From Diacronema lutheri (Eukaryota > Haptophyta > Pavlovophyceae > Pavlovales > Pavlovaceae): DNA of 64,000 nt. Made by a program: the position numbers and the translations under genes. The stretch covers positions 332,501 through 396,500 of the forward strand of contig JAGTXO010000012.1 of the NCBI GenBank assembly GCA_019448385.1. The letters run 5' to 3'. Below are positions 25,501 through 59,950 of this stretch, in pieces (position 1 is the first letter of the stretch; each line of letters opens with the position of its first letter). The notes under the pieces were generated by a model. That model was given only the letters and a program-made list of their open reading frames with translations. It did not search any database and was not told the DNA's origin.

Positions 25501-28241
25501 TCCCCGGCCGCCATGTCGACGCGCACCAGCTCGATCGTCGTATGCGTGTGCTCCGCGTCCAAAGGCACGGCCAGCTGCGCGTCGAAGGCGCCATACTCGT
25601 CGTCCGCCCACACGCTCGCGCACGCGCTGCCGTCGGGCGGCACGTACTCGCCGCACGCGACCGGCGTGCCGTCGGGCTCGGAGCGCGCCGGCGGGGCCGA
25701 CGCAGAGCGCGAGGAGAGAGCGTCGCTGCTCGCGCCGGCAAAGCCGCCCTCGCCGTCGACCTCGCCCACAAAGCCATAGCCGCGGTCAGCGACGCGCTCG
25801 TTGGGCGCGCGCCAGCGCACGCGCAGGAGCAGCTGCCGCCGCTCGCGCGGCGGCACGGCAAGGGCCATGGCCGTCGCGACCGCCGCGCTCGCATCCGCAG
25901 CCGCACTCTCGATCGCGCCGCCATCGCGCACGTCGGCGAGCGCACGTGCGAGCGGCGACGAGGCGCGCTGCTCGTCGGCGGGCGCGGTCGCTCGCTCGCG
26001 GATCCAGCCTTTCACGCGCACCGTCTCGCCCTGCCGGTACATGGACGCGTCGGTGACGAGCGAGGCGGCCGCGCCGATGGGCGAGATGACGCGCGGCCGC
26101 GGCTGCACGCCCGAGATGAGCGAGATGTGCCCGTCGCCATCCGCCTTCGAGTCGATGGCTGCAAAGAGCGTCAGGGGCTCCCCAAGCCGCTCCTCCCATA
26201 CCTCGCGCCGGTCGGCCCACTGCCGCGGCAGCTCAAGGAGCGCGATGCCGCGCGCATCGGTCTCGCCGCTCGCCACCTCAGCCACATCCTCCGCGCGCAC
26301 GCTCCGCCCAGAGTGCCGTCGGCTGTCGTAGGCGAAGAGACGCACGCGCGCGCCGGCCGCCGGCCCGCCCGGCGCGTCCAGCCGTGTCACCCACAGCGCA
26401 AGCTCGCCGGCGGGCACGCGCGCGCCGCTCGGCACGACGCTCGCGAGGACAAGCGCGCCGTAGCGCGGCGTTCCGAGCCAGCTCGACGACTTGCGCGCGC
26501 CCGAGCTGTCCGCCCGCACGTTGGCCCACATGTTGTACGAGTCCCATTTGGTGCGCACGGCGAGGCCCGATGGCGCAAGCGCAGGGCCGGTCGGCACCTC
26601 AAGCGGCGTGAGCGCGTCGGTGAGTGGTGCGCTCGCCCAGCTGACGGGCTGGATGAACTCGTCCTCCGACGAGAGCACCGTCGCGATCGCGTGCGGCAGG
26701 GTCGCCGAAGTGACCGGCGCGAGCGTCACGTTGTACGCGAGACCAAACCGACCGTCGTGCTCAAGGCGCCTCCGACGCTGCCCGTCGTTGCGCGCGGCGG
26801 CGATGAGCGGCGCGAGCCAGGCGGCGCGCTGCGTGGGGTCGGCAGGCGCGCAGCCGCTGCGCATGCCGCGCACGTTCGCATCGCCCGCGCCAAAGCACTG
26901 GTCGGCGCCGCGCGCCCACACGCGCAGCGCGCGCGGCGCGCCGCCCGGCGGCGCAAAGTGGGCAGCGACGTCCGAGTCTGCGAAGAATGTGGGCAGCTCG
27001 GCCGTGTCGAAGGTGGTCGACTCGCCCGCAGAGCCGAAGGCGGCGCTCAGCCGACCGGTGAGCGCGCTGAAGACGTGAGTCGCGGGCGACGGCCGCGGGT
27101 CTGCGCCGAGCGATTGGCCAAACGCGTCGGTCACGGCCGCGCGCTTGGCCGCGGCCGGGTCGATGCGCACCGTGTAGCGCGTCGCGCCCTGCAGCGGCGC
27201 CTCGATGCGCAGGACGCCGGGCGCGGGGCGCGAGAGGTTGAAGTTGAGCGGTGGCTCGATCGTGGTCGCCGTGCGCAACGCCGCGAGCACCGCGTCCGCG
27301 CCGAGCGGCGGGCGGAGCGCGAGGCCATGCTTGAGCCAGAAGTCGAGGCGGCGGAAGCGCGGCCGGAGCGCGCGGTACAGCTCGACGGCAGGCGGCGGTG
27401 CGCGCTGGAGGTACGGGAAGAAGAAGGGCTCGAGGCCGCTTAGGCGCACCTCCGACACCGCCGACGTGCGCCCGTGCGTCGGGTGGCACGCGAAGCCCTG
27501 CTTGAGGCGCAAATCGTAGGACGTGCTGGCCTCGAGCGGCTCGGCCGGGCGGACGCACAGCGTCCGATTATCGGCGGCGGGATCTTGATCGCAGCCGAGG
27601 AGAAGGGCGGGTACGCGCGACAAGCTCGCGGTGCCCACGCCACGCAGCTCGAGCGCGGCGAGCGCCAGCTTGGGCGCGATGCTCTCGCTGAAGCGCAGGC
27701 GCACAGAGCCGTCGGGCGGCACCTCTCGCGCGCGCTCGTCGACCGTCGCCGTGCTCGCGTCCCAGAGGCCGCCCGTCGCGTTGCGCGCAGCGGGCGAATC
27801 GACAACGTCCAGCCACATGCGCAGCGCCGGCGTCCGAAAGCGCACCGGCGCCGATGCTCCGGCAAGCTGCGCGCCGTCGAACGCGACGAGGCCGGCGATC
27901 GGCGCCACGTCGAGCGTCAGATCGGGTGGCCAGTCGGTGGACGGGTCAAAACGCGCGATGGCGGTGGTGACCCAGCGGAAGCGGCCGGGCACGTGTGCGG
28001 GGGTGATGCTGAACGCCGGCGGCGACGCGTCGAAGTCGGCGCCAAGCGCGATGACCGCGCGTGAGAAGACGACAGTAATCGCATCACGGCCCGACAGGCT
28101 GCGCGGCGCGCTGTCGGCCGCACCGCGCGCCCCGGCGGGGCTGATCGTCGTCACCTCGAGCGGTAGCTTGGATAGGAAGGCGCGCGTTGTTGTCGGAGTG
28201 CACGCGCAGGCGAAGAGCGCGAGGCTCGCTCTGTACGTCAT
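19596..28241 (-). CDS. alpha-2-macroglobulin-like giant surface protein with EGF and TM
   Basis: One uninterrupted exon encodes 2,881 residues. A secretory signal is likely at the start (SLALFACACTPTTTRAF). The body follows the bacterial-type large alpha-2-macroglobulin (YfhM/YfaS-like) order: MG-type beta domains, the SLVIVDKAMLDVSPHP motif, a Met-rich flexible segment where a bait region would lie, then FARVALFAPSIAVPESGEVE with LPDNVGTWLIRAYA, an all-helical TED-like region, and the terminal VEVSISITSADDVSGLVVED/RPPAGLEPLDP motif. No C-x-E-Q thioester is found where it would be expected. Additions absent from bacterial forms are an EGF-like module (CVDPECAGRGSC...CECAPGWEGDGC) and a single C-terminal TM (about 19740-19820) with a short cytosolic tail. 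A protease-trapping or adhesion role at the cell surface is inferred. Confidence 0.88.
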   Translation of the reverse strand: MTYRASLALFACACTPTTTRAFLSKLPLEVTTISPAGARGAADSAPRSLSGRDAITVVFSRAVIALGADFDASPPAFSITPAHVPGRFRWVTTAIARFDPSTDWPPDLTLDVAPIAGLVAFDGAQLAGASAPVRFRTPALRMWLDVVDSPAARNATGGLWDASTATVDERAREVPPDGSVRLRFSESIAPKLALAALELRGVGTASLSRVPALLLGCDQDPAADNRTLCVRPAEPLEASTSYDLRLKQGFACHPTHGRTSAVSEVRLSGLEPFFFPYLQRAPPPAVELYRALRPRFRRLDFWLKHGLALRPPLGADAVLAALRTATTIEPPLNFNLSRPAPGVLRIEAPLQGATRYTVRIDPAAAKRAAVTDAFGQSLGADPRPSPATHVFSALTGRLSAAFGSAGESTTFDTAELPTFFADSDVAAHFAPPGGAPRALRVWARGADQCFGAGDANVRGMRSGCAPADPTQRAAWLAPLIAAARNDGQRRRRLEHDGRFGLAYNVTLAPVTSATLPHAIATVLSSEDEFIQPVSWASAPLTDALTPLEVPTGPALAPSGLAVRTKWDSYNMWANVRADSSGARKSSSWLGTPRYGALVLASVVPSGARVPAGELALWVTRLDAPGGPAAGARVRLFAYDSRRHSGRSVRAEDVAEVASGETDARGIALLELPRQWADRREVWEERLGEPLTLFAAIDSKADGDGHISLISGVQPRPRVISPIGAAASLVTDASMYRQGETVRVKGWIRERATAPADEQRASSPLARALADVRDGGAIESAAADASAAVATAMALAVPPRERRQLLLRVRWRAPNERVADRGYGFVGEVDGEGGFAGASSDALSSRSASAPPARSEPDGTPVACGEYVPPDGSACASVWADDEYGAFDAQLAVPLDAEHTHTTIELVRVDMAAGDGDAPAAAARYTDLATAAVTIAEPRPPTATLNLETIGEDGAPVSSFSTFADGKLVRLRVRTATYTGSAIGGSEVALHWDVSTGDASEGPPSAGASARAPGASWVGGLAALGAERHDDDEAAPMREAGGALVARSEPPSTSGVVRVTTGSEDGVVVVALDADSQPEAHAALRRAREGGSLSVRAEWVGPTRELVTAHASISAAADESGAQLDIALATADPLPGFEFAVATHLSRSGSSVSEHAALDVALYALAEAPSEADVRARGALAGSSPPVSHARCTSGAATFDTADGGCALRMPDAAARYVLVACTVADAPPRACAAVRVGHSPATWQRAPLRSLSAQSSALFIDRPAYAVGDALTVAWHSQFADGAHALALWGDEGTLRAVALGPLARGANRLTLRVGSECATGCSLTLALASGARAAELNLPAGVSRSPLFDSRMPLAGLWTLRIAVEHAPRALAVALAVRSAGGDGTSDAAALPPGSAARVRVRVTDAATGAPVRGQVSLVIVDKAMLDVSPHPLARPADAFERLRTRGAPDAVAQLALLGHADAPGSTHESALLSERAHGAAASALERLFAREPWLDPPRGGAWAAAAFGFGPYMPGVRTGSLAECVEQPEDEALAPLRSVLTSCPAGCDWDGNHAAYAPGFRGDGRLFRSQRNAMRFADDSVMMMEGAGAMAVAMMAAPEEGDAPVRMRAAPSAAVPSAEALAKSAGGGGGGADGAPAGASVPALRTHFARVALFAPSIAVPESGEVEVPWQLPDNVGTWLIRAYAAAASPHAASAGAHALAAGADPASAFGSAELPQLAARPLSLVPSVPRFARVGDRFEAGVSARIVDAHALFALAAGAEGAAAEGAAVHLELRVTVAVAEGEARTPPLLVEPAEGEGHAGDAAVTRVVRFADALAPIELAATLRAVALGHANLTLAVRVLRASDGALLAADSLAHALDVEAASPAVVVATSFSVDGDDVRVRAAAAAAERAVALGLAPAAPATASASADGANCALLPWTEGLALPAAVPGSGSLAITAGVGYEAAARQLAERAAASAVDATVPTARANALEWTSTTELLAGLLGAPLANGTYAPDAQPAATSARWYGLALAEVARRSLDDGTGLCSLGGRWCVPYAQRARTAFGRRGEQLPPEALVDTRLLSFALLLLAEAELGGSLSAEPDTRAPALVRALASSWASALARALAWRASEAADAAHSGDTPSLPPSELCWAAAALGVGWADELRAMGASRATHPAVGTPAPSGPPAWAADARAAAVEGAASVRSARARALLGSSALHAALEGSGADSECDALVALAALRPPPPALADGAHAMSGDAEGALRRLVGALRVTGRTSFIAAGPGLQNAAPVRTQALALRAFAAATATSGKGAPVELVPRLAMVVANSEGAGGAHGGWRYGGWGGDGETSALRLAALCAYDLATGSAAPQLRFEALAGARPLLRAAFARDHAPASRVRLPWEAISASRGVGAGALPSALAPRGGAASLRDAEPLIFFARGTGRVGVAVELSFAPAPQPGSTAPRYRGLYVERVFRAPGGAGGALHGPLLLGSLVEVSISITSADDVSGLVVEDRPPAGLEPLDPAVYGGASAPASSGLEPCPVWYGWLGSWWRGGWGVCEPTFERDISPSLVRWRAQWAGAGTHTLSYTAMVATAGEFALAPAHAYLSAQPELMGLSTAGQLAVARVLPTGGAPARAQQPPKECVDPECAGRGSCDVLRGVCECAPGWEGDGCADESAQRVLRVEPWPTSASAPAGPRGSVRFRFGLVKAPPHGRRLAPLADSAHRARFAYAFSSDQAVLPSSAINVDAETGVVQLNPAPGARPGSAYVTIAASEDGAQLHSALVLVNAAADGRLAALPLELLDEGDALGRTAAGLASAGTHAAATPAGARGSQLALAGGAAAATVGAAAALALVLARRMRTRGRGFLQLDPTHGVQLGAVQTAASSDGGGTGSCTPSHSD

Positions 28242-28527
28242 GGGCTTCGACGTGAGGACGGCCCACGGCTCCCCTCGGACGTCGTCGGAACTTGTTCCAA
28301 TTCAGGCGGAATTTCTGCGTCCTCGGCCCATCAAGCAAACTACCTACCTACCTACAAAAAAATCGATCCCGGAAAGGCTTTCTGGGATCCAATATTCGCG
28401 AGTCCGGGGATCCGGGGATCCGACTGTCGGCGCGGGCGGCACCGTGCGTCCGTGCCCCCCGCCGACGAGGACGCGGGCGTGACGGGGGCGGCCACGCGCA
28501 GCCGGGTCCCATCCGGGTGGGCCACAG
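28242..28527. other. intergenic spacer between two minus-strand genes
   Basis: These 286 bp include a (CTAC)n run with A7 near 28340-28360 and two overlapping ggggatccg copies near 28415. It probably contains the promoter of the macroglobulin-like gene; no gene was seen. Confidence 0.4.
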
Positions 28528-30818: not shown

Positions 30819-33800
30819 TCACTCATCGTCCGAGCCGTCATCCGAATCGGAGTCATTCGTCGAGTCGTCGCTGTCCTCATCTGAGTCGGAGCCGTTCAGC
30901 AGCGCGGACATGTCGACGTCTGCGGCGGTCTTCTTGAGGTGCGCGTCCTTGTCCTCCTTGACCGGCGCAGGCGGCGGCTCCGGCGCCTTGCCCTTGATGC
31001 CTGGCCTGCCGGGCGGAGGGCGCGCGGGCGGCGCTGCTGGTGCGGCCTTGCCCGGCGGCAGAGACGGCGCGCCAGGCGGCTTCGCCCCGCTGGGCAGCAT
31101 GAAGCTTGCCACGCCCGGCCGCGCCGCCATCGCCGGTCCGCCCGCGCCCGGCACCATGAGCGAGCTGAGCGTGCGAACCGGGTTCGGCAGGCCGGGCGCG
31201 CCCGGCGGCGGGCGTGGGCTGGCCACCTGCGGCGGCGTCGAAGGCTGCGCGGAGCCGTCGATCGGGTCGCCCACACCATCGATCTGCAGCGCGTGGCGCA
31301 AATTGAGCCGAACGGCCGAAAGAATGCTCTTCCCTTGGCGTGCCTCCGAGTCGCCCGCCACGCGGCCTGCACGCGCGTTCGCGTCGCTCGGCCCGCCCTT
31401 GCCAAAGCGCGCGGCCGATCGCGAGCCCGAGTTGGGTCGGCCGAGGCTGTCGGCCGACGCCTCGTTCATGCTGCTCAGCCCGCTCATCCCCAGCGGCGGC
31501 GCGCGCGGGCTGCTGCTGCCAAGGCTGAGCACGGCGACAGACGGCCGGTTCGCCGCGATGAAACGGCTGTTGTTGCCCGCGGAGTCAGCGTCGAGCGCGG
31601 CCGCGCCAACAACGCCGGCGGCGCCTCCACCACCCGCGCCGAGCGTCTGTTTCGTCGAGGACAGGTTGCTGCGCGTCATGGCGCCGCGCTTGGCGCCGCC
31701 GGCGCTCATCGCAAAGCTCGCGCGCGACGCGCCTCCGCCTCCGCCTCCGCCTGAGCGCGGCTGCAGCTTGTACGGCTTGAGCACGGGCTGCATGAGCGTC
31801 TCGCGCACGAGCTCGGCGCGCGCCTTTGTGTCGACCGACGAGGGGAGCTCGAGGACGGTCGGCACGAGCTTGACAAGCCGGTCCATGTGCATCAGCTTCG
31901 ACTTGAGCGCCTGCGCTCGCCGGGCGCGACGGGGTCCAAGGCCGACGCGAGGCGGCGCGCGTGAGCAAGCGCGCGCGCGAGCGAGCGGCGCGGCGTGCAG
32001 CGAAGCACACGCGCGCGCGCGAGCGCGCCCACCGGGGTGTACTTTTCGGAGATCTCGCAGTTGGTGCCGAGCATGAAACGGAACAGGCCGTCGCGGTCGC
32101 AGATCGGCTGCAGCGAGATGAGGTTGAGGAATGGCTGGCCCGACTTGCGGTAGTTGATGAGCTTCACGTTGATCGGCTGCCCCTGCCGAATCGCCGCGCC
32201 GATCCGCGCGACGGTGTTCGGGTCGGTCTGCTTGCCCTGCAGGAAGCGGCAGTTCCGACCAATCGCCTCCGACCGGCTGCGCACGCGGCGCGACGCACGC
32301 AGGGCGCGTGCGCGCGGCGTGGGTGAGCGCACGCGCGCAAGTCGGGTAGCCGATCAACGTGTGTAAGCGCACGCGGGCCTGCGCTCGGCGCGCGCACGCG
32401 CGTGGCCGACGCTCGCAGCCCGCCGCGCGCGCACGCGCGGCGGGCGAAGGCCCGTCGCGCTCGGCGTGCGGTGCGGCGCGCGCACGGGAACTCGGTCATC
32501 TGCTCGAAGGCCTTGTTCACGTACATGATGGGCACGCCGGGCTTGATCATGTCGCACACGATGACCGCTGTGCGCATGTCCTCAGCCGCTGTGCAGAAGA
32601 GCTTCATCCAGTCGTCCGCGTCCTGCGGCGCGGTCGAGCGGCTCACGCGGATCGCCAGCTCGAGCTCGGGGTCCTTGCTCGTCTGCATCAGCGACGAGGC
32701 GAGGCCGGTGAGCAGGCGCGAGCGGAGGAACGCGGGCAGCAGGTCGAAGGCGAGCAGCTGCATCGTCAGCGACAGCAGGCGCTGCAGCTCTGCAACGAGC
32801 ACGTGCGTGTCGCCCACAGTCGATGTGGACTCGTGACGCGCGAGCGCAAAGCCGTTGCCGTTGCCGTCGTCGGCGGTGGCGGCAGCCCGCTCGGCCGGGC
32901 GCGTCAGGCGCGCACCCGCCGCAGCGCCCACCGGTACTGCGTACTGCGCCACGGCCCCCGCCTCGCCGTCGGCACCCGTCGCCGGCGCGATGGCGCGCGC
33001 GGAGAAGCGCTGCTGCCGTCGCGTCGACGCACCGTCGGCGTGCGTCTCCGACTCGCCCTCCACGCTCGGCTCGGGCACGTGCTGCGCGGCGAGCTTGGGC
33101 TGACCGTGCTCTGCCCTGCGCATCCCGAGCTCGGGCAGCGCGAAGGCGCGGAACGTGTCGGCCGCGCGCTGCCGCAGCGTCTCGCCCGACAACCCTTTGA
33201 GCTGCTCGACCGCGAGCCAGAACGCGACGATGCCCTCGCCGTAGTCGGAGCGCTCGCGCAGCGGGTTGGTGGAGTGGAGCGAGAGGCGCACGTCCATCGC
33301 CATGCGCATCGCCGCTGTCACCACGCCCAACTCGTTCGGGTTGAGCGCGACCACGTTGCTGCCGTCGGCCGGCGCAGCCGTGAGCGACGCGCGCGTGGCG
33401 GTGAGCAGCGTCGCCCGCGTCGCTCCGCCCTTCATCTCGCTCATTGAGAGGCCGGCGCGGCTCGCGGCGGGCTTGCCGCCCAGCTGCGCCGAGCTCACAC
33501 GCGCGCCGCCGCCAAAGGCCGCGCTCGACTTGCCCAGCTGCGCCTTGGACGCAAACGCCGCGCGCGACGCGAGGCCGGCCTTGGACGCCATCGCCGAGCC
33601 GAGGAGGCCGCCACCGCCGCGCCGGCCCTTGGGCACGGCCACGCCCTTGGAGAAGGCCTCGTGGAAGTACTGGTTCATGACAAACTCGCTGAAGACGTCG
33701 CGCCCCTCGGGCACGAGGCGCAGCAGCCGGTCGATCGTGTGCACCGCGCCGTGCAGCCACTTGTCCGCGTTGAACTCGACGAGCGCGTGGCGCGCGCCCG

Positions 33801-36800
33801 GCTCGTCGGCAGCCGCGCTCGCGCCCGTCAGCCGCGCGCCAGCGGACGTGGGCCGCGCGCGCTCGGCGACGCGCGTGCGCTCGGCGGCGGACGGCATGGA
33901 CGCGGCGACCGCCTCGCGCGCCGCGCGCGTCGCGCGCGGCAGGATTGAGATGAACTCCTGCGCCTTGCGTAGCTGCGACTGCGTGACGAGCGTGCCCGAA
34001 CCGTGCGTGCGCTCGACGAGAATGCCGACGGCATACTTGGCGGGCCCACCGGGGTACTCGCGCGTGAAGCCGAGCGAGAGGATGTTCCGAAACGCCTCGC
34101 CGTTGTTCCGGTAGTTGAGCAGCTCGACGCGCGCGCCCGAGCGCAGCTCCTGCGTCGCTGCCTTCACCTCGCGCACTGACGCGGCGTCGGTGGCCGCACC
34201 CTGCAAGAAGGAGCAGTTCTGCCCGAGGACCTCGGCCTGCGAGAAGTTGGTGAGCGCGGAGAAGGCCTTGTTCGCAAAGATGATCGGCAGGCCGGGCAGC
34301 TGCATGTTGACGAGGATGATCGCGAGCTCGTGGTTGTCGAGGCAGATGTGGAAGACGCGTACCCACTCGTCCTCGCGGTTGAGCAGCGCGAGCTGGCGCG
34401 AGTTGGGCACGTGCGGCAGCTGCCAGTTGCCCTTGGCGGGCAGCTCGAGGAAGAGCTCCTGCGCCTCCGCCGTGCCGCGCAGCTCGCGGATCCCGCGCAT
34501 CTGGATGAAGGTGATGACGAGCGCGGCCGATTTGACAAAGTCGAGAAGGAATTCGGACGCGAGCATGTTGAGCGTCGCACTCGCCTGCTCGCGCAGCATC
34601 GAATACGCGGCGAGACCGTTGGGCGCGCGCTGCGCGGGGAGGAACCGTCGGAAGACCGCCATGATCTCCTGCTCGTCCTGCGCGCACATGGGCTCCTCGA
34701 GCTTGACGACCTCGAGGTAGAAGATGACCTCGATCGAGACGTGGCTGACCGTGCGCACGTACTGCTTAAAGTTGGCCATCGCGGGCGGGTACGCGAGCAG
34801 CCGCTGGAGCAGCTCGGGCGTGCCGTGGCGCATCCACATCAGCTTCGAGTACATCTCTTGCGCGCCAAAGCCCTCGAGCGTGCGCACCGAGTCGAGCGCG
34901 TCGCCGTCCGCATCGTCGATCCCCTCGATCAGCCCGCGCATCTGCAGGTGCGCTGTGTTTGGCACCGCGAGGCCGAGCGAGCCGAGGAACCGCCGGAAGT
35001 TGTCACGGAAGACGCGCGGCGCCGCCTCGATGCGCACCTTGCGCTTCGAGCCGTCCGCCTCGACCACCGTGCCGATCTGCTCGCGCGTCGCCATGAGCGC
35101 CGACGAGAGACGATGCGCCGACGCCTCGCGCGACACGTCACGCGCGAGCTCCGCCTTGGCCGGCCCGGGCAGGCCAAACTCGGAGGCGGCCGTCGCCCAG
35201 CGCCCCTTGTCGACGACGGGCCGGCGCTCATCCTTCTTCGGCTTGCGCCCGCCGGGCGCGCCGACCGCCTCGCCGCCCGCGCCGTCTTCGCCCTCCGCCT
35301 CCGCCGCGGGCGCGCCGGCCTCCCCCTCCTCCTCGAAGCGCGCCGCGTCGCCGTCGCCGTCGCCATCGCCGTCATCGCCGCTGCCGTCGTCCGCGTCCTC
35401 CCGCTCGGCCTCCTCCTCGAGGTCGGCGCCGAGCGCCGCGAGCTCCGCCGCCTTGCGCGCGCGCTGCGCGAGCGCCGCGTTGTGCTCGTCGACGAGCCGG
35501 CGCGCGCGCGGATGCATCGGCCCGACCGGCTTGGCGGGCCCCACCTCGAGCATGCGCGGCAGCAGGCAGACGAGGCGCGAGAGGCGCATGAAGCGGCGAC
35601 GAATGGTCACTTGCTCGGTGATCGGGAACTGGATCCCCATGCAGAAGCGGTAGACGCCGTTCGAGTCGAAAATGGCGAGGAGCGTGAGCAGCGACTTGAA
35701 CGGCACCCCTGCCTTCGTGTAGTTGGCGACCTTGACGTGGCAGTCCTCGCCGTTGCGCAGCGCGCGCACGATCGCCGCGACGGCCTCTGGGTCGGTGAAC
35801 GGGCCCTGGAGGAAGCGGCACGACTTGCCGAGCACCTCCGACGTCTTGTACCCCGTGATCGCGCAGAAGCCCGCGTTGACGAAGACCATCGGCGAGCCGG
35901 GCAGCGTCATGTCCGAGAGGCAGATGCACGCCGGGTACTTGTCGAAAAGCGCCGCAAACTGCGCGAGGAAGCGCGACGTGTCCGCGGGCACGTCGTACTC
36001 GGGCCAGAGGAGCGCAAAGGCCGACTCGTTCACCTCGGTCGGGTCGTCCATCAGCCGCGTGACCGTCGTGTCCGACTTGTCCGAGTAGATGAAGTCGACA
36101 AAGTGCGTGTCGACGAGCTCGCGCGTCACGCGCTTGAACGCGGCTTGTATCTGCTCCATCTTGGCCTTGCTGTCGGCCGCGCCGAGCGGCTGGTCGCCCG
36201 CGTGCTTCACCTCGAGGTACTCCTTGTACGCCTCGTCCGCCTTGGCCATGCGCGCGAGCTCGGACATGCCCATCAGCTTTGAAACGGCCAACCAGAAGCG
36301 CAGCGTCGTCTCGAGGTTGCGCGCGCGCAGAAACGCCTCGAAGGGCCGCAGCTCGTCGCGTGCGACGACGGACTCGCGGAAATGCTTCTCGGGCAGCTCG
36401 AGCCAGTCGAGCTTCGTGAACGCCACCTGCACCGCGCGCGCCTGCTCGAGCGACGCGTCCTCGGACGGCTCCATGAGCTTGCCAATCGGCCAACCGCGCG
36501 GCTGCAGGTGCGCGGGAAAGGAGCGTTCGAGCAGCGTCGAGATGAGCTCGCGCAGCTGGCTCTGCGTGAGCGCGGGTGTCTTGCGCAGCGCCTCGAGCTG
36601 CGCATTCTCAACCACGTCGCGCTCGCCGCCCACGCCGCCCTTCTTGGCGACCGCGCGATACGCCGTGCGCTGTTGCCGCGCGGGTGCCCGCGCCGCGACC
36701 CGCCGGCCGTCTGCCGCCTCCGCCGCCGCGGCCGCGTCTGCGCGCTCGGGCGCGACGAGGAAGTCGCCGACGGCCTTGGCGTCGCGGAGCAGCGCGACGA

Positions 36801-39800
36801 TGTACCGGAACGTGCCCTTGTCGTCGTGGATTGGCAGCATCGTCAGCTCGTTTTCAAAGCGCTCGCCATCCTTCCTGTAGTTGGTGAGCGTCACCGTCGT
36901 CTGCGCGTGCGCGCGGACCGCCTCGACGATGGTCGCAACGGCTTCGGGCTCGGTGTCATCGCCCTGGAGGAAGCGCATGTTTCGCCCAACCGCCTCGTCG
37001 CGCGCGTACCCCGTCACCCACTCGAACGCCGGGTTGGTCCAGAGCACGGGCAGCCCGGCGACGAGCGTGTCGACGATCGCGACGGCGAGCGGCACGGCGT
37101 CGAGCGCGAGCTTGGCCATCTCGAGGTAGCCGTGGCTCTGCCGGATGAGCGGCAGCTCGGCCTTGGCGTTGCGCACGGTGCGCAGCTGGTTGAGCATCGA
37201 CGCGCAGAAGCCCGACGTGACCCATTGCGGGTAGTAGTCAGACGCATACCGAAGAAGCGCCGTCTCCGTCTCCACCTCGAGCAGCTCCTGCGCCTCGAGC
37301 GGATCGACGGCGCGGCCGTGCAGCCGCTCGTACAGCTCGGCGCACTTCATCCGCACGAGGTATCGATCGGCCGTCGCGAGCCGGCGCAGCTCGACGATCG
37401 TGTCGACGAGGAGCGCCGCGCGCGCGCCCGCCTGGCGCAGCATGAAGACGACGAACGAGCTCTTCCCGTCGACCATCCGCAGCATCGTGCGCAGCGTCGC
37501 GCGCGCGTCGTGAAGGAAGCGCACGCGCGAGAACTGGTCCGCGACGATGTGCACACCGAGCCGCTCGAGCTGGCGGCCGTGGTTGTTGACAAAGCGCACG
37601 ACCGACACCTCGTTTGGCCGTGCAAAGCCGCCCTCGAGCGCAACGACCGCGCCCTGCACCGCTCGCTCCCGGTCGCCGTCCTTGGTCGCGCGCGCCATCC
37701 ACGCCGGCGGCTGCTGCGCGAGGGCGAGCAGCTTGGCGTGCAGCGCGGAGAAGCTGTCATAGTTGCCCCCTTCGCGCCTCGCGCGCTCTGCGAGCCACGA
37801 CGTGTGCATGAGGCCCGCGCGCCCGCTTGGCTCAACTTCCACCATGTGCGGCAGCACGGTCACCACGCGTGCGAGCGCCTCGATCTTGCGCGCCGAGTCG
37901 ACGCCGGCGAGCAGCTCGGTCTGCACGCCGATGCACATTCGATAGCCGCCGCTCGAGTCGTGCACCGGCCTGAGCACGAGCAGGTTGGTGAACGTCTCGC
38001 CTGACCTCCGGTAGTTGGTCAGCTTGACCGCACAGTCGGTCGCGAGGCGCAGCGCGCTCACGATCTCGTGCACCGCGTCGGGCTCGGTCTCGGGCCCCTG
38101 CAGGAAGCGGCAGTTCCGCCCGAGCGCCTCCTCCTTCGTGTATCCCGTCGTCAGGCAGAAGGCCTCGTTGACGAAGATGAGCGGGTTGCCCGCGAGCGTC
38201 ATGTCCGAGATGACGACGCACGCGTCGACGGTCGCGGCCGCGGACGCGAAGCCCCACAGCCAGCGCTTGAGGTCGTCGGGTGTGTGGTAGTCGACCCAGA
38301 GCAGCTGCGACGCGGCGTCGAGCGCGACGGGCAGCTCGACCGTCTCGAACACGCGGTCGGACGCTGCAGTCTGCAAGAAGGGCACAAAGTGGCTGATGGC
38401 CATCTCCTTCGCAACCTTGGCCGCCTCGAGCTGCACGCGGTACTTTGGGTTGGGCGTGAAGGAAGAATCGTACGGGAAAATGCACTCGCGGTACAGCCGC
38501 TCGGCAAGCTCGGCGTCGGCGGGCGGCTGCAGCGTGGCGAGGAGCAGCTCCTCGCAGCACAGCCGCCACCTCGCGCTCAGCTCGGCAGACCGCTTGCCCA
38601 TCGTCGCGAGGTACTCGCCGAACAGCTCGCGGAAGAGCGGCGAGTTGCGCATCGCGTCGCGGAATGACGCCTCCTGGTCCGCGAGCCACTGCAGCTTTGT
38701 GAACGCCCCCACGCCCATCGTGTACTGCCGCCGCCGGACGGACTCGGACACAGCGCGCACGGCGTGCGTCGTCGCCGTCGGCCGCCGGCTCTTGGGCGCG
38801 GACCACGCGCCGCCATACTCAACGTCGGCAGTGCCCACGGCGCCGTCGGCGTCGCCAAACTGCCCTTCCCACAGCTCGCGCTCCTCCTGCGCCGTGCAGC
38901 GCAGCCGCTCGGGCAGCAGCCGGATCACACGAGCGACGAGCTCTCGCAGCTCGGGCGATCGCTCGGCGTCGGCGACGTCGAGCTGCAGGCCGATGCAGTA
39001 TCGCACCTCGCCGTCCGCGCCGCGCACGTAGACCATGCTCAGCTCGTTGACGAAGCGCGCGCCGCTCTTGCGGTAGTTGATGATCGTCTGCGTCGTCGGC
39101 TGCTGCTCGCGCAGCGAGAGGCTGAGTGCGCCCACCGCGTCGCTGTCGGCGAAGCCCCGCTGCAGGAAGCGGCAGTTGCGACCGACCGCATCGATCATCG
39201 TGTAGCCGGTCAGCTGCTCGAAGGCGCGGTTGACGAAGATGATGGGCAGGCCCGCGACCGCCATGTCGACGACGCACGTCGCGAGCGGCAGGCTGTGCGC
39301 GGCCTCGAGGAAGGCGACGGTCCATGGCTGGCCGAGCATGGTCGTCGCGAAGCCAAAGAGCGTCAGGCGCGGCGGTGGCTTTGGCGCCTCACCCGCCAGC
39401 TTGTCGATGAGCTCGACGCCGTCCTCCGACAGCACGAACGCCGGCCAGATGGAGTGGAGCATCGTGCGCAGCGGCCGCTGCAGCCCACGCCGCACGCGAT
39501 CGAGCCGCGTCGCGTCGTCGTCGTCGTCCGTGCCCGGCGTCACGTCAGGCGGCCAGTGGTTGCGCATCGATGACTCGAGCCGGTCGATCGCGTCGGACAG
39601 CTCCTCCGCGTCCGCCAGCGCGGCGGCGGCGAGCACGTCGAGCACCAGCTCGGTCGTCTCGCGATCGAGCCTCGGCACCTCGCGCGCGCGAGGGTCGCTG
39701 TTCGCGCCGTCCACCGGCTCGCGCGCTGCGGCGCCAAAAGCGACGAGGGCGGGCTTGAGCTGCGCGACGGAGGCGAGGAGCGCACCGAGCCGCTCGCCCG

Positions 39801-42800
39801 TCGCATCAATCCACGACAGCTGCGTGAGGCGCACCGCCTCGTCGCGCGCGGCGGTCGGGTCGATCGACGCGAGCGCGTCAGGGTCGGCGTCGGCCGCGCG
39901 CCGGCCTGGGTAGGAAGTGGCCGAGCCCTTGCGCACGCGGTGCAGGTGGGCGAGGCGCGCAGCGCGGCGCTTGGTGAGCTGCTCGTTGAGCTCGCGCACC
40001 ACCTCCTTGAGCTCCTCGCGGTGCCGGTCGTGATTATGCTCGAAGAAGGGCTTGTCGTACCGGACGGTCGGCACGCTCTCGTCAGGCGGCGCGATCACGA
40101 CGCCGCCCGGCGGTCCGGAGAGGAGGCGCTGGAGCTGCGCGCTGATCGTGCGCGACGAGCGCTCGCCAAAGGGCTGAAGCGGCTCCTCAATCGTCGAGAA
40201 GGACGGCACGGCCGCCTTGAGCCCCTTTGGCTTTTGCGCGCCGCCCGCTGCCCGTGGCGGCGCGTTCGAGTCCGCGTCCGAGTCGCCGTCCGAGAGCGAG
40301 GCGTCGGACTCGTCCGAAGCGGACGAAGGCTCGATGCCGCCGCCGCCCCTTTTCTGTGACTCGGCGAGAGCGAAGGTGAGCTCCGTCCCAAAGTAGGCCT
40401 TGCACCGCACGGACGATGCGGGGAGCGGCTCGAAGGGCGGCGCGTGCAGCGTGAAGGGCAGCAGCGTGAGCGCCGAGGCGTATGTCTCGAGCCACGCGCG
40501 CGAGCCGGGCAGGACGGGCGCTTGCACGCCGATGCAGAAGCGGAAGCGGCCGAGCGAGTCGTGCACCGGCTGGATCGCGAGCAGCTGGTCGAAGAAGCTG
40601 CCGTCCTTGCGGTAGTTGGTGAGGCGCACGAGGCAAGGGATCGCGCGCCGCAGCGCGTGCTGGATTGCCTCGATGCACTTGGCCTCGGTGCGCGGACCCT
40701 GCAGGAAGCGACAGTTGAAGCCGAGCATCTCGCCCATCGCGTAGCCCGTCAGCTCGCAGAACTTTTGGTTGACGTAGACGAGCGGGTTGCCCGCGAGCGT
40801 CATGTCGCTCAGCGTGAGCGCGAACGGGAACGACTGGCCCGCGGCCGTGAAGCCGTGCACGAAGGCGTACGCGTCGGACGGCAGTTCATACGCGCCCCAC
40901 AGCAGCATCTTGGACGAGCCCAGGTTCTCAGGCCGGTGCACCGCAGCGATGCACGTGCCGAAACCCGCCGAGCTCCAGAAGCGGCCGAGCGCGTCGACGC
41001 GCGCGAGCCGCGCGCGCGCTCTGCCGACAAGCTGCGCGCACAGCCGCATGTCCGCGTGCTCGTGAAGAAGCGCGCCCTCGCCCGGCTCGCGACCGGCAGC
41101 GCCGCCGCCGCGCGCGGATGCACCGCCAGGCCGCCGCGTCGCCCCGCCGCCGCGCGACGGCGCGCCCTTGCGCGGCGGCGCGCGCGGGCCGCCGCCGGCG
41201 TCGTCGTCGTCGTCGTCGTCGTCGCCGAGGATGTCGGCGAAGTCGCCGTCCGCGTACAGTTCGGCGAGGTCGCGCGCCGACGAGAGCGCGGTCGCAAAGT
41301 CGCCGTTGCGCATTGCCTGGCTAATCTCGAGGTTGACGTCGAAAATGTCGAAGAGCTTGAGCTCGGGCGCGCGCTGCGGCATGACGCTCGTCATGAACTT
41401 TTTGAGCACCTCGTAGGTCGCGCCGTTCTCCGTCAGCACGCAGAGCGCATCAGACGCTTTGCGCTTGTCGCCGAGCCACGCGAGGCGGAGAACGGCCGCG
41501 TGCATGCGCTGATTGCACTCATGCCGCTCGTGCGCCACCAGCTCGGTCTGCGCCGGCGGCGGATTGGGCGGCGGTGCGTCCTCGTCCCATGGGTGCGCGT
41601 ACCGAGCGGGAATCACGCTCGGCAGCACGGCCGCAAGGAAGTCGCGCAGCGTCCGCGCGGTGCCGGCGCCGTCGCTCGCGCCGCCGCCGCTCGCCGTCAC
41701 GCGCGTGTGCCCATCGTCGCTCTCGCTGTCCGAGCCACCGCCACCGTCGCCGCCGCCCGCCACCGGCGGCGGGGCGGCCGCCCCCCTGTCGAGGAGCATG
41801 CCCACCGCGTAGACATACTTCCCGGAGGCGTCGTGGATCGGGTGGATCAGGCACTCGCAGACGAAGCGCGCGCCGCCCTTGCGGTAGTTGGTCACCGCGA
41901 CCGTCACGCCCGTGCCGTCGCGCACGGCTTCGACAATCTCAATCACGCGCTCGGGCTCGGTGTCCGGCCCCTGCAAGAAGCGGCAGTTCCGCCCGTGCGC
42001 CTCGGCGGGTGAGTAGCCGGTCACAGCCTCGAACGCGCCGTTGGCCCAGACGATCGGCAGACCGGGGATGGCCATGTCGACGAGAATCACGCCGAGCTGC
42101 ACCGAATCGAGCGTCTCGGCGAGCACCTTCGGGAAGGGCGCGGCGCGCGCGATCGGCAGGTCTGACAAGATGCCGCGCTGCTCGTCGGACAGGTTGAGCT
42201 CGACAGCGTCGTGCACCTCGCGCACGGCGCGCGAGATGAGCTCGGTGCCCGCGTCCGAGTTGACAAAGACGGGGAAGAGGTTGGCCGCCATGTGCCGCAG
42301 CACCTGCGCGTGCTTGTCGATCGCTTCGGCCATCGCGACGGCCGAGTCTGTCACTTCGGGCCCGAGGTCGTCGTCGTCGTCGTCGTCGTCGTCGCCCGGT
42401 GCGCGTGCGCCGCCGGTCGGCAGGGGCGCGGCCGAGCCCGCAGTGCCCGAGCTCGACTTGCCCGAGCCCGAGCCCGACTTGTCCGAGCCCGATTCGGACT
42501 TGTCCGAGCCCGAGCCCGATGTGTCCGATTCCGAATCGGAGCCCGAGCCCGAGTCGCTGCCCTTGGCCTTCGCGCCCGCCTTGTCGCGTGCGCTCGCCGC
42601 GGGCTTCGCCTTGTTCGGCGGCGGCGGCAATGCCGCAGCGGCAAGCCGCTTGGGCCCGCGTGCCGCCCTGCGCGCGAGCTTGATGAGCGCAACTGAGCGC
42701 CTCCTCGCGCGAATCGACGAGCCGAGCTGGCGCATGGCCGAGATCTCGTACAGGAACTCGAGGCTGAGCAACGCCGCTCCACTCGGGTCGGCGTGCGTGT

Positions 42801-45800
42801 AGAATCGGACGAGGCGGTCGTACGCCGCCTTGAGCGGGATGAGCCGCTCGAGGAGCGCCTCGGCCTGCCCGATCCACATCACGCGCGTCATCACGATCTC
42901 GAGCGCGTCCGCGTCGCGCGCTCGCGCCGCCGCGTCGTCGTCGTTCGAGCGGTCGGCGCCGAGCTCGTGCATCATGCTCGCGTAGTTGTCGCCGAAGCGC
43001 ACGCCCGAGCGGATGTCGCCCGCGTCGGCGATCTCCACCTGCTGGTTGAGCACGCGGCGCAGCCGGTCGGTGACCATCAAGTTTGTGTCCGCCTCGACCA
43101 TGTTGTCGCCGCGGTGCTTGGTCCGGTCCTTGTTGCGCAGGTACTCGGCAAACACGGACGGCGGCTTCACGCGCCCGACGTTGATGCGCGACGGGACGAG
43201 CGTCGCCATCGCGGCGAGGCGCTCGAGCTTGCGCTGGATGCCGACGGCCTGCGTCACCTCGCACTGGATGCCGACGCACAGCCGCATGAGGCTGTTCGAG
43301 TCGTAGATGGGCTGCAGGGCGAGCAGGTTGACAAACTGCTGGCCCGATCGCCGGTAGTTTGTGATCTTGACGAAGCACTTGTCGCCGTTGCGCAGCGCGC
43401 CCTGGATCTGCGAGACGGCGCTCGGCTCGGTGTCCGGCCCCTGCAAGAAGCGGCAGTTCCGCCCGAGCGCCTCCTCGCGCGAGTACTGCGTGACCGTGCA
43501 GAAGACCTTGTTCACGAATATCATCGGGTTGCCCGCGATCGTCATGTCCGAGATGACCATTGACATTGGGTGCGACTCGGCCATCTCGACAAAGGCGGCG
43601 AGCCAGCCGACGAGCTCCGGCGGCGGGTCGTACCGCTGCCACAGCTTGGACGTGTACTGCTGCAGCGAGCGCGGGATCGTCGGCAGGAGCGTGGCGAGCA
43701 CGTGCGTCGAGTCCTCGCGCTTGAGCCACTCGTTAAAGACGACGGACGCGAGGACGCCCAGCGCCTTGCGCGCGAGCTCGGCGGCCTCGTCGAGCTCGCG
43801 CGCCAGGTCAGCACCGCCTCTCGAGACGGGAATCCCACTCGCGATCAGCAGCTCGCGCACGGCTGCGCCCTGCTCCGCGGGCGGCAGCGCCTTCGCCTTC
43901 TCGTGCGCCAGCCAGACCTCGAGCTGGCGCGCATGCCCACTCGCCGCGCAAAAGGCGCGATACGGCTCCATCACCGACTGGTGGCCCATCAGCATCGGGA
44001 AGCGCAGCTCCGCGTCATGCGCGAGCGCAAGCTTGGAGAGGCCGACCGTCGCGCGCGCGTACTGAGCCTCCCACCGCTGGAACGCTGCCGACGCGCCGTC
44101 CGCGTCGTCCGCGTCGTCGCGCTTGCCGTGGAGCGAGCCCATCTCCTGCGCCTCGGACGGGAAGGTCGCCGGTAGCCACGCGAGCAGCGTGCGCTGGTCC
44201 TTCTCCTGCAGCGCCTCGGCCTCCGCGTCGCCGAGCAGCGCGACGCAGTAGCGGAAGACGCCGTCCATGTCGTGGATCGGATGAAGTGTCACGTGGTTGA
44301 GGAAGCGCGTGCCGTTCTTGCGGTAGTTGTAGATGCGCACGTCCGCGCGCGTCGCCGAGCAGATGCCGCGCGAGAGCGCCGCGACCGCCTCCTGCTGCGT
44401 GTCCGCGCCCTGCAGGAAGCGGCAGTTCTTGCCGATCGCCTCGGCGCGGTTGAAGCCGGTGAGGGCCTCAAAGCCCTCATTCGCCCACGAGATCGGCAAG
44501 CCGGGCACCTGCACGTTCACCATGAGCAGGGGCGCGCGGTTGCGCGTGAGCGCGGTGGTGAAGAGCTCGGCCCACGGCCGGTCCTTGAGCTGCGGCACGT
44601 CTTTGAATGCGAACCACTTGCGCCCCATCTGCTCGAGGAGCGCTTCGCACATCTCCGAGCCGACGAACGGCTCGAAGCAGCCGCGCGCCAGCTTGTCGAT
44701 CAGCCGGCGGCACTCCGAGTTTGCGAACTTCATCGCCATGTCGTGCGTGAGGCCGTCGGTGAGGCCGTTCTTCTGGTAGTAGAGCTCGGACATCTGCGTG
44801 TACTGCTCGTCGGGCCCGAGGGCCTTGACAGCTGCGAGGCGAGCGGGGCGCGCGATATGCGCAAGGGGGAGTGGAGATTCTCGAGTGAGTGCAGCTCCAT
44901 GCATCGGTGCACGACGGGGGTTGCGCAGCACCCAGCGGACGGGCCAGCGCACTGCGCGCGTCCGCAGCTTCCGAGCTCGCGCGCGTGCGCGCGCACGTAC
45001 CGTGCACCTCGAGCACAAACCGCAGGTCGACCATAAAATTGGGCGCCTCGTCGCTCAGGAAGTCGCGGAAGTACGTCGTCGCGTCCGTGTTGAGCAAGAG
45101 CGCGGTCAGCGTCGAGTTCGCCTCCGAGAGCCAAAACAGCTTTGTGAGCGTGCGGAACATGCCGTCCTCCGCAGAGAGCGAGTTGAGCTGCGCCGCGCCC
45201 TCGGTGACTGTGAGCGTGTCGCGGTACTCGATCGCGTCCGAGTTGTTGAGGCCGAACGCCGTCGGCGCGACCCACACTGTGCCGTCGTCGCGTGCGGCGA
45301 TCACCTGGCCGACGCCGCCGTGCTCGAGGTCGTCCTCCACCACCTTCATGTTCTTGCGCTTCCAGTCGTCGCCAAGCGCGCCATCGTCGTCGCGGTAGGC
45401 CATGTAGGCGGCAGTGCCCTGCTTGCGGCACAGGTCGATCACCTTCCATTTCTCGAGGCGGAACGTGCCCTCCTGCCGTGTGCGCGCACGCACCTGCGCG
45501 CGGCGCGCGGCGACAAGCGCGCGCTCGTTCTTGTCCGCGAGCTTTGCCTGCGCCGTCTTGTGCCCGAGCAGCATCTGCGAGAGCACCGAGCCGTCGTGCG
45601 CTCCGAGGGCGAGCTTGAGGAATTCATCTCGCCACGCGCTCTTTTCCGCGTGCTCGCGCTCGCGGATCGTGTTGAGCACCTCGGTGGCCTGCGCGTCGCG
45701 GCCAGACTCGTTGAGCTTGGCGACGCTCTCCCTGAGGTTGAGCAGCTCCTTGGACATGCGGTACCGCTGCTTTGCGATCGTGCGCGAGGCGCGGCTGCTC

Positions 45801-46369
45801 ACGCCGATGTCGGACATATGCGCGTTCTCCTCAAACGCGGCGGCCTGCGTCACCTGCTCGTAGAGCGCATGGTACTCCTGCGCGTGCAGGGTCATTAGGT
45901 TCTTCAGCTCAGCCGCGCCCGCCTCCTGCATCTCCGTCAGCTCCTCTGCCTGCCGGCGGAGCAGCTGCTGCCGCTGCACGCGCTGCTTCATCTCGAGGCC
46001 GGCGAGCTTCTTCTCGAGCACGCGCTTGTTCGTCTCGACGCGATCAGCCTCACGGCGGGCGCGCGCGTCGTCGATGCGCTTGTCGAGGCGGCGCGCGTCG
46101 TCGTAGCAGCCCAGACGCATCAGCAATCGCCGCTCCATCAGCAGCTCCTCGAGCGTCTGGAACTCAGCCGCGGCCACCGCTTTGTCCGCTGCCTTCTTGT
46201 CGGGCGCGGCCTCGTTGACCTTCACCTTCTCGGCGACGGACCTCAGCTCGACCTTGGGCTTCTCGCCAGCGCGGCGGAAGTTGTCGACCGCAGTCGTCAC
46301 CTTCTCGCGCGCCGACTCGGCGAGCGCCTTGCGCGCCTTCGCTGCCTCCTTGGACTCCATGATGGACAT
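30819..46369 (-). CDS. giant RGS-LOV protein with ten LOV photosensor modules
   Basis: Exons 45001-46369, 32486-44831, 32033-32276 and 30819-31910 (introns 169, 209 and 122 nt) join in frame to 5,016 residues. Residues about 10-330 are charged coiled coil. Ten RGS-like helical segments (recurring F-x-K-L-x-W and FL-type helices) each precede a LOV domain. Nine modules keep the adduct Cys (residues 593, 916, 1406, 1830, 2343, 2697, 3461, 3996, 4581); module 7 has Met3075. The Asn-Tyr flavin-binding loop is kept in all. The tail (about 4660-5016) is low-complexity and ends acidic (SDSDEDSDDSTNDSDSDD). Single RGS-LOV fusions are known, mainly from fungi and algae; they bind FMN, sense blue light and can reach membranes. 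Here a light-responsive G-protein-regulatory scaffold is inferred. Acidic/Ser-rich linkers (for example 42360-42580) separate some modules. The start is the ATG at 46367-46369; an acceptor-like site 3 nt upstream suggests a further 5' exon. Confidence 0.92.
32050..32562 (-). other. LOV module 10 (type B-like), split by an intron
   Basis: The N-terminal part (CDMIKPGVPIMYVNKAFEQM) is at about 32490-32562. Intron 32277-32485 interrupts it. The core IGRNCRFLQG with Cys4581 (codon 32249-32251) is in the next exon. NYRKSGQPFLN is intact. I-beta is FMLGTNCE with Asn for Gln. Confidence 0.88.
34012..34320 (-). other. LOV module 9 (type A)
   Basis: Core LGQNCSFLQG, Cys3996 (codon 34213-34215); the Arg after Cys, normally an FMN-phosphate contact, is Ser. 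The loop NYRNNGEAFRN is intact. I-beta is YAVGILVE with Leu for Gln. Confidence 0.88.
35617..35925 (-). other. LOV module 8 (type B)
   Basis: Core LGKSCRFLQG, Cys3461 (codon 35818-35820), with Ser for the Asn before Cys. The loop NYTKAGVPFKS has Ser at the second Asn position. I-beta is CMGIQFP with Gln retained. Confidence 0.88.
36775..37083 (-). other. LOV module 7 (type A, adduct Cys replaced by Met)
   Basis: Core VGRNMRFLQG; Met3075 (codon 36976-36978) stands where the flavin-adduct Cys should be. The loop NYRKDGERFEN is intact, so flavin binding is still expected. I-beta is YIVALLRD with Leu for Gln. Confidence 0.9.
37909..38217 (-). other. LOV module 6 (type B)
   Basis: Core LGRNCRFLQG, Cys2697 (codon 38110-38112). 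The loop NYRRSGETFTN is intact. I-beta is CIGVQTE with Gln retained. This is the most canonical of the ten by inspection. Confidence 0.9.
38970..39279 (-). other. LOV module 5 (type A, Gln retained)
   Basis: Core VGRNCRFLQR, Cys2343 (codon 39172-39174); the usual Gly after FLQ is Arg. The loop NYRKSGARFVN is intact. I-beta is YCIGLQLD. It is A-type by its entry motif VDMAVAGLP but is the only A module with the Gln. Confidence 0.88.
40510..40818 (-). other. LOV module 4 (type B)
   Basis: Core LGFNCRFLQG, Cys1830 (codon 40711-40713). The loop NYRKDGSFFDQ has Gln at the second Asn position. I-beta is CIGVQAP with Gln retained. Confidence 0.9.
41782..42090 (-). other. LOV module 3 (type A)
   Basis: Core HGRNCRFLQG, Cys1406 (codon 41983-41985). 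The loop NYRKGGARFVC has Cys at the second flavin-binding Asn position. I-beta is YAVGMLLD with Leu for Gln. Confidence 0.9.
43252..43560 (-). other. LOV module 2 (type B)
   Basis: Core LGRNCRFLQG, Cys916 (codon 43453-43455). NYRRSGQQFVN is intact. I-beta is CVGIQCE with Gln retained. The entry motif is SDMTIAGNP. Confidence 0.9.
44220..44530 (-). other. LOV module 1 (type A)
   Basis: Core IGKNCRFLQG, adduct Cys593 (codon 44422-44424). The flavin loop NYRKNGTRFLN is intact. Strand I-beta reads YCVALLGD, with Leu in place of the signalling Gln. Confidence 0.9.
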
Positions 46370-55200: not shown

Positions 55201-55656
55201 CTCTCAGTCGCTGCGCGCGCCTCCGCCTCGCGCTGCGCCGCCGCCGCGCCCTCCTTGCGCAGTGCGGCCAACTGCTGCGCGTACTCCGCGGCGCCGGCCT
55301 GCATCTCGCGCAACTCGAACCTGAGCGCGCTGAAGAGCTCGTTGTACTGCTCCGTCTCAGCTGCGCGCTCCTCCGTCTCACGCTGCAGCGTCTGCTGCAG
55401 GCGGAGCGTCTCAGCGAGCAGCTCGTCGCGCTCGCCGATTGTCGCGAGCAGCTTCGCGCTCATCGCGTCGCGCTCGGCAAACGCGCTTGCCTTGGCCTCG
55501 TTTGCGTCGGCGAGTTGCGCGTGCACTGCCTCGAGCTGCGCGCGGACCGAGTCGACGGATCCGGCAGCAGCGTGCGCGGTGGTGGCTGCCGTCTGCGCAC
55601 GCGCGCGCGCGCCGTGTGACTCGCCGATCAGCTCGGCGCCGTCGTCGGCGCCGGCA

Positions 55657-55692
<36 letters not shown>

Positions 55693-57302: not shown

Positions 57303-57422
57303 GCCAGCCCCGCCGCGCCTGCGCTCTCAGCCCAGAGCCGGCACGTGCCGGTTGGCGCCCACGCGCGCAGAGCGCCGCCGTGGTGCCGCACAAACCGCCC
57401 ACCGGCCTACTCAAAAGCCCTA

Positions 57423-58551: not shown

Positions 58552-58670
58552 TTTTGAACAGCTGCGAGGCGCCGTGGTCCCCGTCGGCGCGGCGCGCGCC
58601 GGCGCGGCCGTGCCGGCCGGCAGCTTCGGAACGCCGGCTGCCTTGACGGCGCCTGCCTTAGCCATCCAGG

Positions 58671-59560: not shown

Positions 59561-59839
59561 CACGCGGCCAGCATCGCGGCGCTTGCCACGCTGGCGGCGG
59601 GTGGCGGTACGCTTCGCGGCGGCGGCAGGGGGCTGCGACGCGGCGGGGAGGGCGGCGGCTCGCTGGCGGCGGGCGTCGCGCTCTGCAGCGGCGGCGGGCG
59701 GCTTGGCGACGTGGCAGGCGGCGGCTCGGGGGTGGCGGTCGTCGCCGACGATCTTCGGGCCTCGGCGTGCGCGTGCGCGTCGGCCGGTGGTGTGATTGAC
59801 GGCGGCCACCGGTGCGGCGGCGCGCGGGCGGCGGCGCGC

Positions 59840-59950
59840 GGTGGCTAGGCGCGAGTGGGCCTTTGGGCCTGCTCCGCCTGGCGCCTCGCTGCGCACTTCC
59901 TGACCCCATCTGTTGACCCGTCGGAAAGCGTCGTTAGTATACATACATAC
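59840..59950 (+). repeat. element-like tail, copy 2
   Basis: This is the counterpart of 58389-58551: ggctag stop, gtgggcctttgggcc, ctgacccc and cgttagtatacat, extended to gtatacatacatac. That last 14-mer also occurs at 57801-57814. The three sites bracket the repetitive segment. Confidence 0.6.

Follow-up and report, generated by a model that had tools for sequence, protein, structure and literature searches.

The window analysed here, a 64,000-nucleotide stretch of the marine haptophyte Diacronema lutheri (GenBank assembly GCA_019448385.1, contig JAGTXO010000012.1, positions 332,501 to 396,500 of the forward strand), carries on its minus strand a gene predicted to encode a single 5,075-amino acid (aa) protein with ten LOV domains. 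As judged from its predicted domains, the ten-LOV protein belongs to the RGS-LOV (helmchrome-like) kind as a giant new variant, and the same genome encodes a paralogue with twelve LOV domains that is no less unusual. On balance, the domain content and the analogy with helmchromes incline us to regard it as a giant helmchrome-type blue-light receptor, perhaps associated with the flagellum or eyespot, which would use many flavins for light-steered swimming.

Structure of the ten-LOV gene and protein

The gene model comprises six exons (46738-46652, 46550-46487, 46395-45001, 44831-32486, 32276-32033 and 31910-30819, minus strand). All five introns are of the GT..AG type, and the spliced frame contains no internal stop codon. 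A single minus-strand open frame spans 4,296 codons (32164-45054), and exon 4 forms a continuous stretch of 12,346 bases. The GC content at codon positions 1, 2 and 3 (0.693, 0.483 and 0.919, respectively) is a strong coding signature, as expected in high-GC coding DNA.

An earlier note on this DNA had joined four exons in frame (46369-45001, 44831-32486, 32276-32033 and 31910-30819, minus strand). This model does yield 5,016 aa without an internal stop, but the 5' part had to be revised to six exons, which places the start codon at 46369 inside the coding sequence. The revision was guided by P0132, a 253-aa orthologue fragment from Pavlovales sp. CCMP2436 (53% aligned to the N-terminus), which extends upstream of the 46369 start. 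Because this alignment runs further upstream, two extra exons were added at the 5' end, and the acceptor of the next exon was moved upstream (exon start 46395). The alignment backs exon 2 and the joint between exons 2 and 3, and exon 1 was placed by its start codon and frame. An upstream donor near 46424 was rejected, since it breaks the frame; the donor at 46486 fits the orthologue instead.

The relative P0005 (4,019 aa, metagenomic contig; 61% identical to the ten-LOV protein) starts approximately 30 residues past the place of intron 3, and at the intron 4 site its frame departs from the homologous sequence. Because this frame starts and ends near both places, intron 4 appears to be conserved and intron 3 may be. 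P0004, a partial protein with 100% identity, retains intron 4 unspliced. The single giant RGS-LOV frame with ten LOV domains proposed in the earlier note is borne out by the uninterrupted spliced translation, by the profile matches described below and by the similar array of P0005. The locus is real and most likely constitutes one gene for one giant RGS-LOV protein.

All ten LOV domains were matched, each with an E value of 1.3e-43 or better, by a LOV profile built from both D. lutheri giant proteins themselves. Independently of this profile, Pfam PAS_9 was found in nine stretches of the 12.3-kb exon and at ten places across the gene. The number of cores, one of them with Met, agrees with the earlier reading, but NCRFLQ is present in seven and not in nine of them, the others being SCRFLQ, NCSFLQ and NMRFLQ (one each). 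The adduct-forming Cys is kept in 9 of the 10 domains and replaced by Met in LOV7. The position of the relay glutamine, which we take to correspond to Q513 of oat LOV2, is occupied by Gln in LOV2, 4, 5, 6 and 8, by Leu in LOV1, 3, 7 and 9, and by Asn in LOV10.

The segments preceding the LOV domains were scored with an RGS family profile built from segments of relatives, with the ten-LOV protein and P0005 left out (117 of the 128 training segments finally included). Twenty shuffled versions of each segment were scored alongside, and the 2,712 shuffles reported reached a maximum of 8.4 bits. Nine of the ten segments scored well above the shuffles, and the RGS core was covered in all except segment 4 (Table 1). 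The RGS-like helical segment that had been claimed for every module can therefore be upheld for nine of them. When six segments were tested singly against Pfam RGS (cut-off 23.9 bits), only RGS8 passed (29.3 bits); RGS1 (12.6 bits) and RGS9 (13.7 bits) remained below the cut-off, and segments 2, 6 and 7 gave no RGS match. Since single-sequence Pfam passes only RGS8 of the six, "RGS-like" is the safe word for these segments. The AlphaFold model of RGS8-LOV8 (mean pLDDT 85) predicts a helical bundle.

The array lies between an N-terminal coiled-coil-like region and an acidic C-terminal tail, both correctly recognized in the earlier note: the tail is present in the translation and the coiled-coil-like region recurs in long RGS-LOV relatives. 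By phmmer, it is common to P0006 (E 4.8e-25) and P0009 (E 2.2e-6), in the latter at the C-terminus. A three-member profile of the region matched 8 of the 120 relatives listed by the second search described below, most strongly P0040 (7e-72). Pfam analysis of five coiled-coil members gave no family for the D. lutheri ten-LOV member and a weak match to a domain of unknown function (E 0.25) for one other.

Relatives, repeat pattern and known systems

In a first protein search, 8 of the 1,788 scored candidates passed (P0004, P0005, P0006, P0007, P0008, P0009, P0010 and P0011). Proteins with more than four LOV domains were found among them: arrays of ten in P0005 (the last one cut), P0006, P0007 and P0008 (the first one cut), eight in P0009, seven in P0004 and six in P0010. 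P0006 (4,197 aa) combines the coiled coil and ten LOV domains in one frame. P0011 (E 9e-4), of the PAS and histidine-kinase type, has two weak LOV matches. In a second search, with a piece of the paralogue as query and a reach of up to approximately 2,300 aa, 421 of 7,998 scored candidates passed, of which 120 were listed. Helmchrome-like proteins of approximately 1,330 to 1,790 aa with three or four LOV domains occur among these 120 matches, and the highest LOV count among them is seven, in P0016 and also in P0075 (without the Cys motifs).

In the LOV tree, LOV1-9 each pair with the same-numbered domain of P0005 (support 92-100); LOV10 stands outside this pairing because P0005 is cut there. 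The identity to P0005 is 59-87% for LOVs 1-9 and 51-82% for the stretches preceding LOVs 1-10. LOV1 and the short stretch before it show 81 and 82%, respectively, LOV5 and its stretch 59 and 58%, and LOV7 (64%) falls below the RGS core that precedes it (70%).

The alternation of LOV types was examined as within-minus-between identity over all equal splits of the LOV domains, a measure that is descriptive, as related sequences are not independent. The odd/even split of the ten domains was the best of 252 equal splits (0.422 vs 0.355), with two labellings, the split and its mirror. Labellings at least as good as odd/even numbered 2 of 924 in the paralogue, 2 of 70 in P0009, 4 of 252 in each of P0005, P0006 and P0007, and 2 of 6 in P0018 and P0024. 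Because the odd/even labelling separates the LOVs best, the repeat unit is most simply a pair. The relay Gln is missing in 4 of the 5 odd domains of the ten-LOV protein; LOV5 and LOV10, with Gln and Asn at this position, break a strict odd/even rule. The same-parity and opposite-parity identities of Ectocarpus P0024 were 0.344 and 0.379 with the ten-LOV protein, and 0.379 and 0.515 with the paralogue; the P0024 array seems to begin on the other member of the LOV pair.

The paralogue (C82:1103684-1115903; L009, L010) is one frame of 4,073 codons with twelve LOV domains and six RGS domains; the frame opens with a long charged N-terminus, after which the array follows. In one of its LOV domains Leu replaces Cys. 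One inter-LOV segment resembles RGS18 (PDB 2dlv, E 2.2e-6), and a similar one matches Pfam RGS with 42.6 bits. The odd segments (23-33 bits for all five with the family profile) were not accepted as RGS: the two of the five that were listed are matched over no more than positions 3-61 of the profile's 171, and the RGS count was therefore set at six. A partial protein of Pavlovales sp. CCMP2436 shows 82% identity over 47% of the paralogue query piece.

Among known systems, Ectocarpus P0024, presumably the named helmchrome CBJ26132.1, has four LOV domains with an RGS segment before each (135-178 bits). It shares with the ten-LOV protein the tandem RGS-LOV units, the RGS before each LOV and the two alternating LOV types, but differs in LOV number (four vs ten) and in lineage (a stramenopile, with helmchrome in the posterior flagellum of swarmers, vs a haptophyte). 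The second and fourth LOVs of the helmchrome-like P0023 and P0024 lack the Cys (NSKFLQ), whereas it is the relay Gln that most odd LOVs of the ten-LOV protein lack; P0024 also has no match to the coiled-coil profile. Because LOV number and lineage differ, the ten-LOV protein is not a helmchrome proper. The literature treats helmchromes as RGS-LOV proteins with a putative role as flagellar photo-sensor (PMC10967245, PMC5795050).

The pelagophyte proteins (Chrysophaeum taylorii P0009; Aureococcus P0016 and P0040; all database entries) likewise contain RGS-LOV repeats, with eight LOVs in P0009; they have fewer LOVs than the D. lutheri protein and LOV modifications at other positions. The coiled-coil region of P0009 and P0040 is the same, but C-terminal. 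In fungal RGS-LOV proteins of the BcLOV4 type the RGS also adjoins the LOV, with one domain of each as against ten LOV and nine RGS-like domains here. Phototropins and aureochromes, the latter with one LOV, share the LOV domain and the photochemical Cys; unlike in these proteins, no kinase or bZIP family was found in a Pfam scan of most of exon 3 together with exon 4. Algal phototropins contain two LOVs, according to the text consulted of PMC12558739.

The earlier statement that no protein of this layout had been described is weakened by these comparisons, since the repeat unit is that of helmchrome, with four LOVs in Ectocarpus, and long arrays occur in pelagophyte and metagenome proteins. 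In the open-licence literature (most subscription journals lie outside it), nothing was found on the combination of LOV domain, RGS and haptophyte, nor on multiple LOV domains, and PMC10967245 is the only RGS-LOV title that concerns algae. A term search in the available text of a 2025 algal photoreceptor review (PMC12558739) gave 0 occurrences of helmchrome and of RGS.

Proposed function and alternatives

A helmchrome-type receptor of this size could be built from a two-module unit (an RGS-LOV of one type followed by an RGS-LOV of the other), repeated five times behind the coiled-coil region. From what is established for LOV domains, the LOVs would bind flavin and form Cys adducts in blue light, and the structural change would reach the RGS-like domains by way of the linker helices. 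By analogy with helmchrome, the coiled coil may fix the array to the region of the flagellum or eyespot, and the many flavins per molecule would raise photon capture and so assist light-steered swimming. Stigmata are described, in the literature text consulted, for Diacronema and Pavlova species, and Exanthemachrysis as a phototactic member of the Pavlovales. Since an action on Galpha is unlikely (see below), it is more probable that the RGS-like domains serve as scaffolds or binding domains moved by light. We would propose only tentatively the further step of a giant haptophyte photoreceptor class, in which RGS would have changed from a regulator of G proteins into a structural element moved by light, and approximately ten flavins, held in LOV pairs alternating between relay-competent and relay-less members, would make up an elongated antenna for light sensing in cells without heterotrimeric Galpha.

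Several observations weigh against a helmchrome-type receptor. P0006 and P0007, with ten LOVs each, show no by-number pairing in the LOV tree, and for this reason ten LOVs need not be ancestral; ten as the ancestral number across the long relatives finds no support in the tree, in which 37 of the 78 inner branches are open. The flavin pocket varies at some positions: N492 is replaced by Cys in LOV3, by Gln in LOV4 and by Ser in LOV8. Segment 4 exceeds the shuffle maximum by little (9.0 vs 8.4 bits) and over its first half only, and the structural model of module 4 was set aside as support for RGS, because its RGS part is too weak (mean pLDDT 63.6). No RGS appeared among the 50 matches listed by each of Foldseek and VIA-align 2; the fold is unconfirmed by structure search, both lists being taken up by LOV and PAS chains. 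As to a flagellar relative of the coiled coil, only the Pavlovales orthologue P0132 was returned from 8,000 scored candidates (proteins of approximately 180-570 aa). Assignment of this region to a known flagellar family was rejected: it has no Pfam family, no solved structure (best E 0.39) and no stand-alone relative except the orthologue.

Alternatively, the protein could be a passive flavin antenna or structural rod, that is, a dense ordered flavin store with a shading, dichroic or fluorescence role, most modules of which do not signal individually. Such a role would suit the ten to twelve repeats, the Leu or Asn at the relay position of 5 of the 10 LOVs, the Met of LOV7 and the degenerate RGS-like domains. 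However, the relay Gln is kept in 5 of the 10 LOVs and the Cys in nine, and 8 of 9 LOVs are at least slightly closer to P0005 than the stretch preceding them (LOV5 barely, LOV1 not). We consider this explanation rather improbable.

The earlier note had seen in the array a would-be multi-photon or amplitude-encoding blue-light input to G-protein signalling, with the RGS domains as GTPase-activating proteins (GAPs) of heterotrimeric Galpha and their activity set by the light state of the LOVs. Consistent with this, RGS8 exceeds the Pfam cut-off, the genome contains two more RGS matches beyond the giant genes (C33:16058-16273 and C9:1599791-1600051), and one match to the Galpha profile, taken together with its neighbours in the frame, was flagged as exceeding the cut-off (49.8 bits). 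In the paralogue, with its similarity to RGS18, the motif DSF(P/T)(K/R)F is kept in 6 of 6 RGS domains; Ectocarpus P0024 has D.F(P/T)RF in 4 of 4. The corresponding DSYTRF residues of RGS18 are presumably an RGS-Galpha contact. The basic residue of this motif is present in none of the nine alignable RGS-like domains of the ten-LOV protein. The Galpha profile gave seven matches in the genome, all within profile positions 160-262. Two of them were rescanned, among them the match above the cut-off, and proved much closer to Arf (152 and 190 bits, vs 45 and 35 bits for Galpha). The genome yielded no canonical Galpha, and the Galpha P-loop pattern gave 0 matches, in an assembly reported as 80.8% complete by BUSCO (PMC8379373); at this level of completeness, the absence is not proof. 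A G-gamma search gave no match either, with its controls equally silent.

Because the basic contact residue is absent and no canonical Galpha was found, GAP action of the ten-LOV protein on heterotrimeric Galpha, and with it G-protein regulation, is unlikely. The proposal was accordingly demoted, and light-regulated heterotrimeric G-protein signalling is regarded as a decidedly unlikely role; the paralogue, with the motif kept in all six RGS domains, keeps G-protein regulation open there. That the locus represents several genes or a decaying array is highly improbable: the gene was read from genomic sequence alone, the Cys of LOV7 is lost and P0004 carries the unspliced intron 4, but exon 4 is continuous, the coding sequence has a third-position GC of 0.92, P0005 is a continuous protein with LOV1-9 in the same order that leaves homology at the intron 4 place, and P0006 holds coiled coil and ten LOVs in a single frame.

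The light-sensing pigments of this algal group had been described as unknown, and the two giant genes offer direct candidates for blue-light receptors that are open to test. The helmchrome-type RGS-LOV unit is predicted to have expanded to ten and twelve LOVs in a cultivable alga, the period-two LOV pattern calls for a functional explanation, and individual modules of the array could serve flavin spectroscopy and optogenetics. The apparent lack of canonical Galpha, if confirmed, would uncouple the RGS domain from its eponymous job.

Feature coordinates and neighbouring genes

Table 1. Predicted features of the ten-LOV gene (positions in the window; RGS-like scores by the family profile unless indicated otherwise).
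Feature	Position	Strand	Remarks
Ten-LOV gene, six exons, 5,075 aa	30819..46738	minus	splice model, 5' part orthologue-guided
Conserved N-terminal coiled-coil-like region	45215..46189	minus	no Pfam family; phmmer matches to P0006, P0009
RGS-like 1	44626..45214	minus	67.1 bits; contains intron 45000-44832; Pfam RGS 12.6 bits
LOV1	44212..44580	minus	NCRFLQ; Leu at relay Gln
RGS-like 2	43681..44058	minus	51.9 bits
LOV2	43243..43608	minus	NCRFLQ; Gln present
RGS-like 3, low-complexity insert	42232..43218	minus	38.1 bits
LOV3	41776..42138	minus	NCRFLQ; Leu at relay Gln
Segment 4, possibly RGS-like over no more than its first half	41383..41637	minus	9.0 bits vs shuffle maximum 8.4
LOV4	40507..40866	minus	NCRFLQ
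RGS-like 5	39391..39909	minus	20.1 bits
LOV5	38959..39330	minus	NCRFLQ
RGS-like 6	38329..38724	minus	61.9 bits
LOV6	37900..38268	minus	NCRFLQ
RGS-like 7	37177..37542	minus	31.4 bits
LOV7	36772..37134	minus	NMRFLQ, Met for Cys; P0005 keeps Cys there
RGS-like 8	36043..36438	minus	58.2 bits; PF00615 29.3 bits; PDB RGS3 E 0.0011
LOV8	35608..35973	minus	SCRFLQ
RGS-like 9	34492..34866	minus	55.8 bits; Pfam RGS 13.7 bits, under cut-off
LOV9	33997..34371	minus	NCSFLQ; Leu at relay Gln
RGS-like 10, split by insert of ~140 aa	32689..33945	minus	42.8 bits in two pieces
LOV10	32039..32616	minus	NCRFLQ; Asn at relay Gln; contains intron 32485-32277
Acidic Asp/Ser C-terminal tail	30822..30896	minus	read from translation

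Approximately 6 kb upstream of the start of the ten-LOV gene lies a kinesin motor frame (52449-57326, minus strand; PF00225, E 1e-74). A 2,901-codon frame (19596-28301, minus strand) contains a bacterial alpha-2-macroglobulin MG10-like domain and EGF-like motifs, and a frame on the plus strand (59904-63998), which continues past the window edge, encodes a protein with several EF-hands and a leucine-rich repeat. The window, with a GC content of approximately 70%, also contains a tandem array of a 189-base unit (58669-59561; 4.7 copies, 99% matches) and an AG dinucleotide array of 227 copies (10337-10790).

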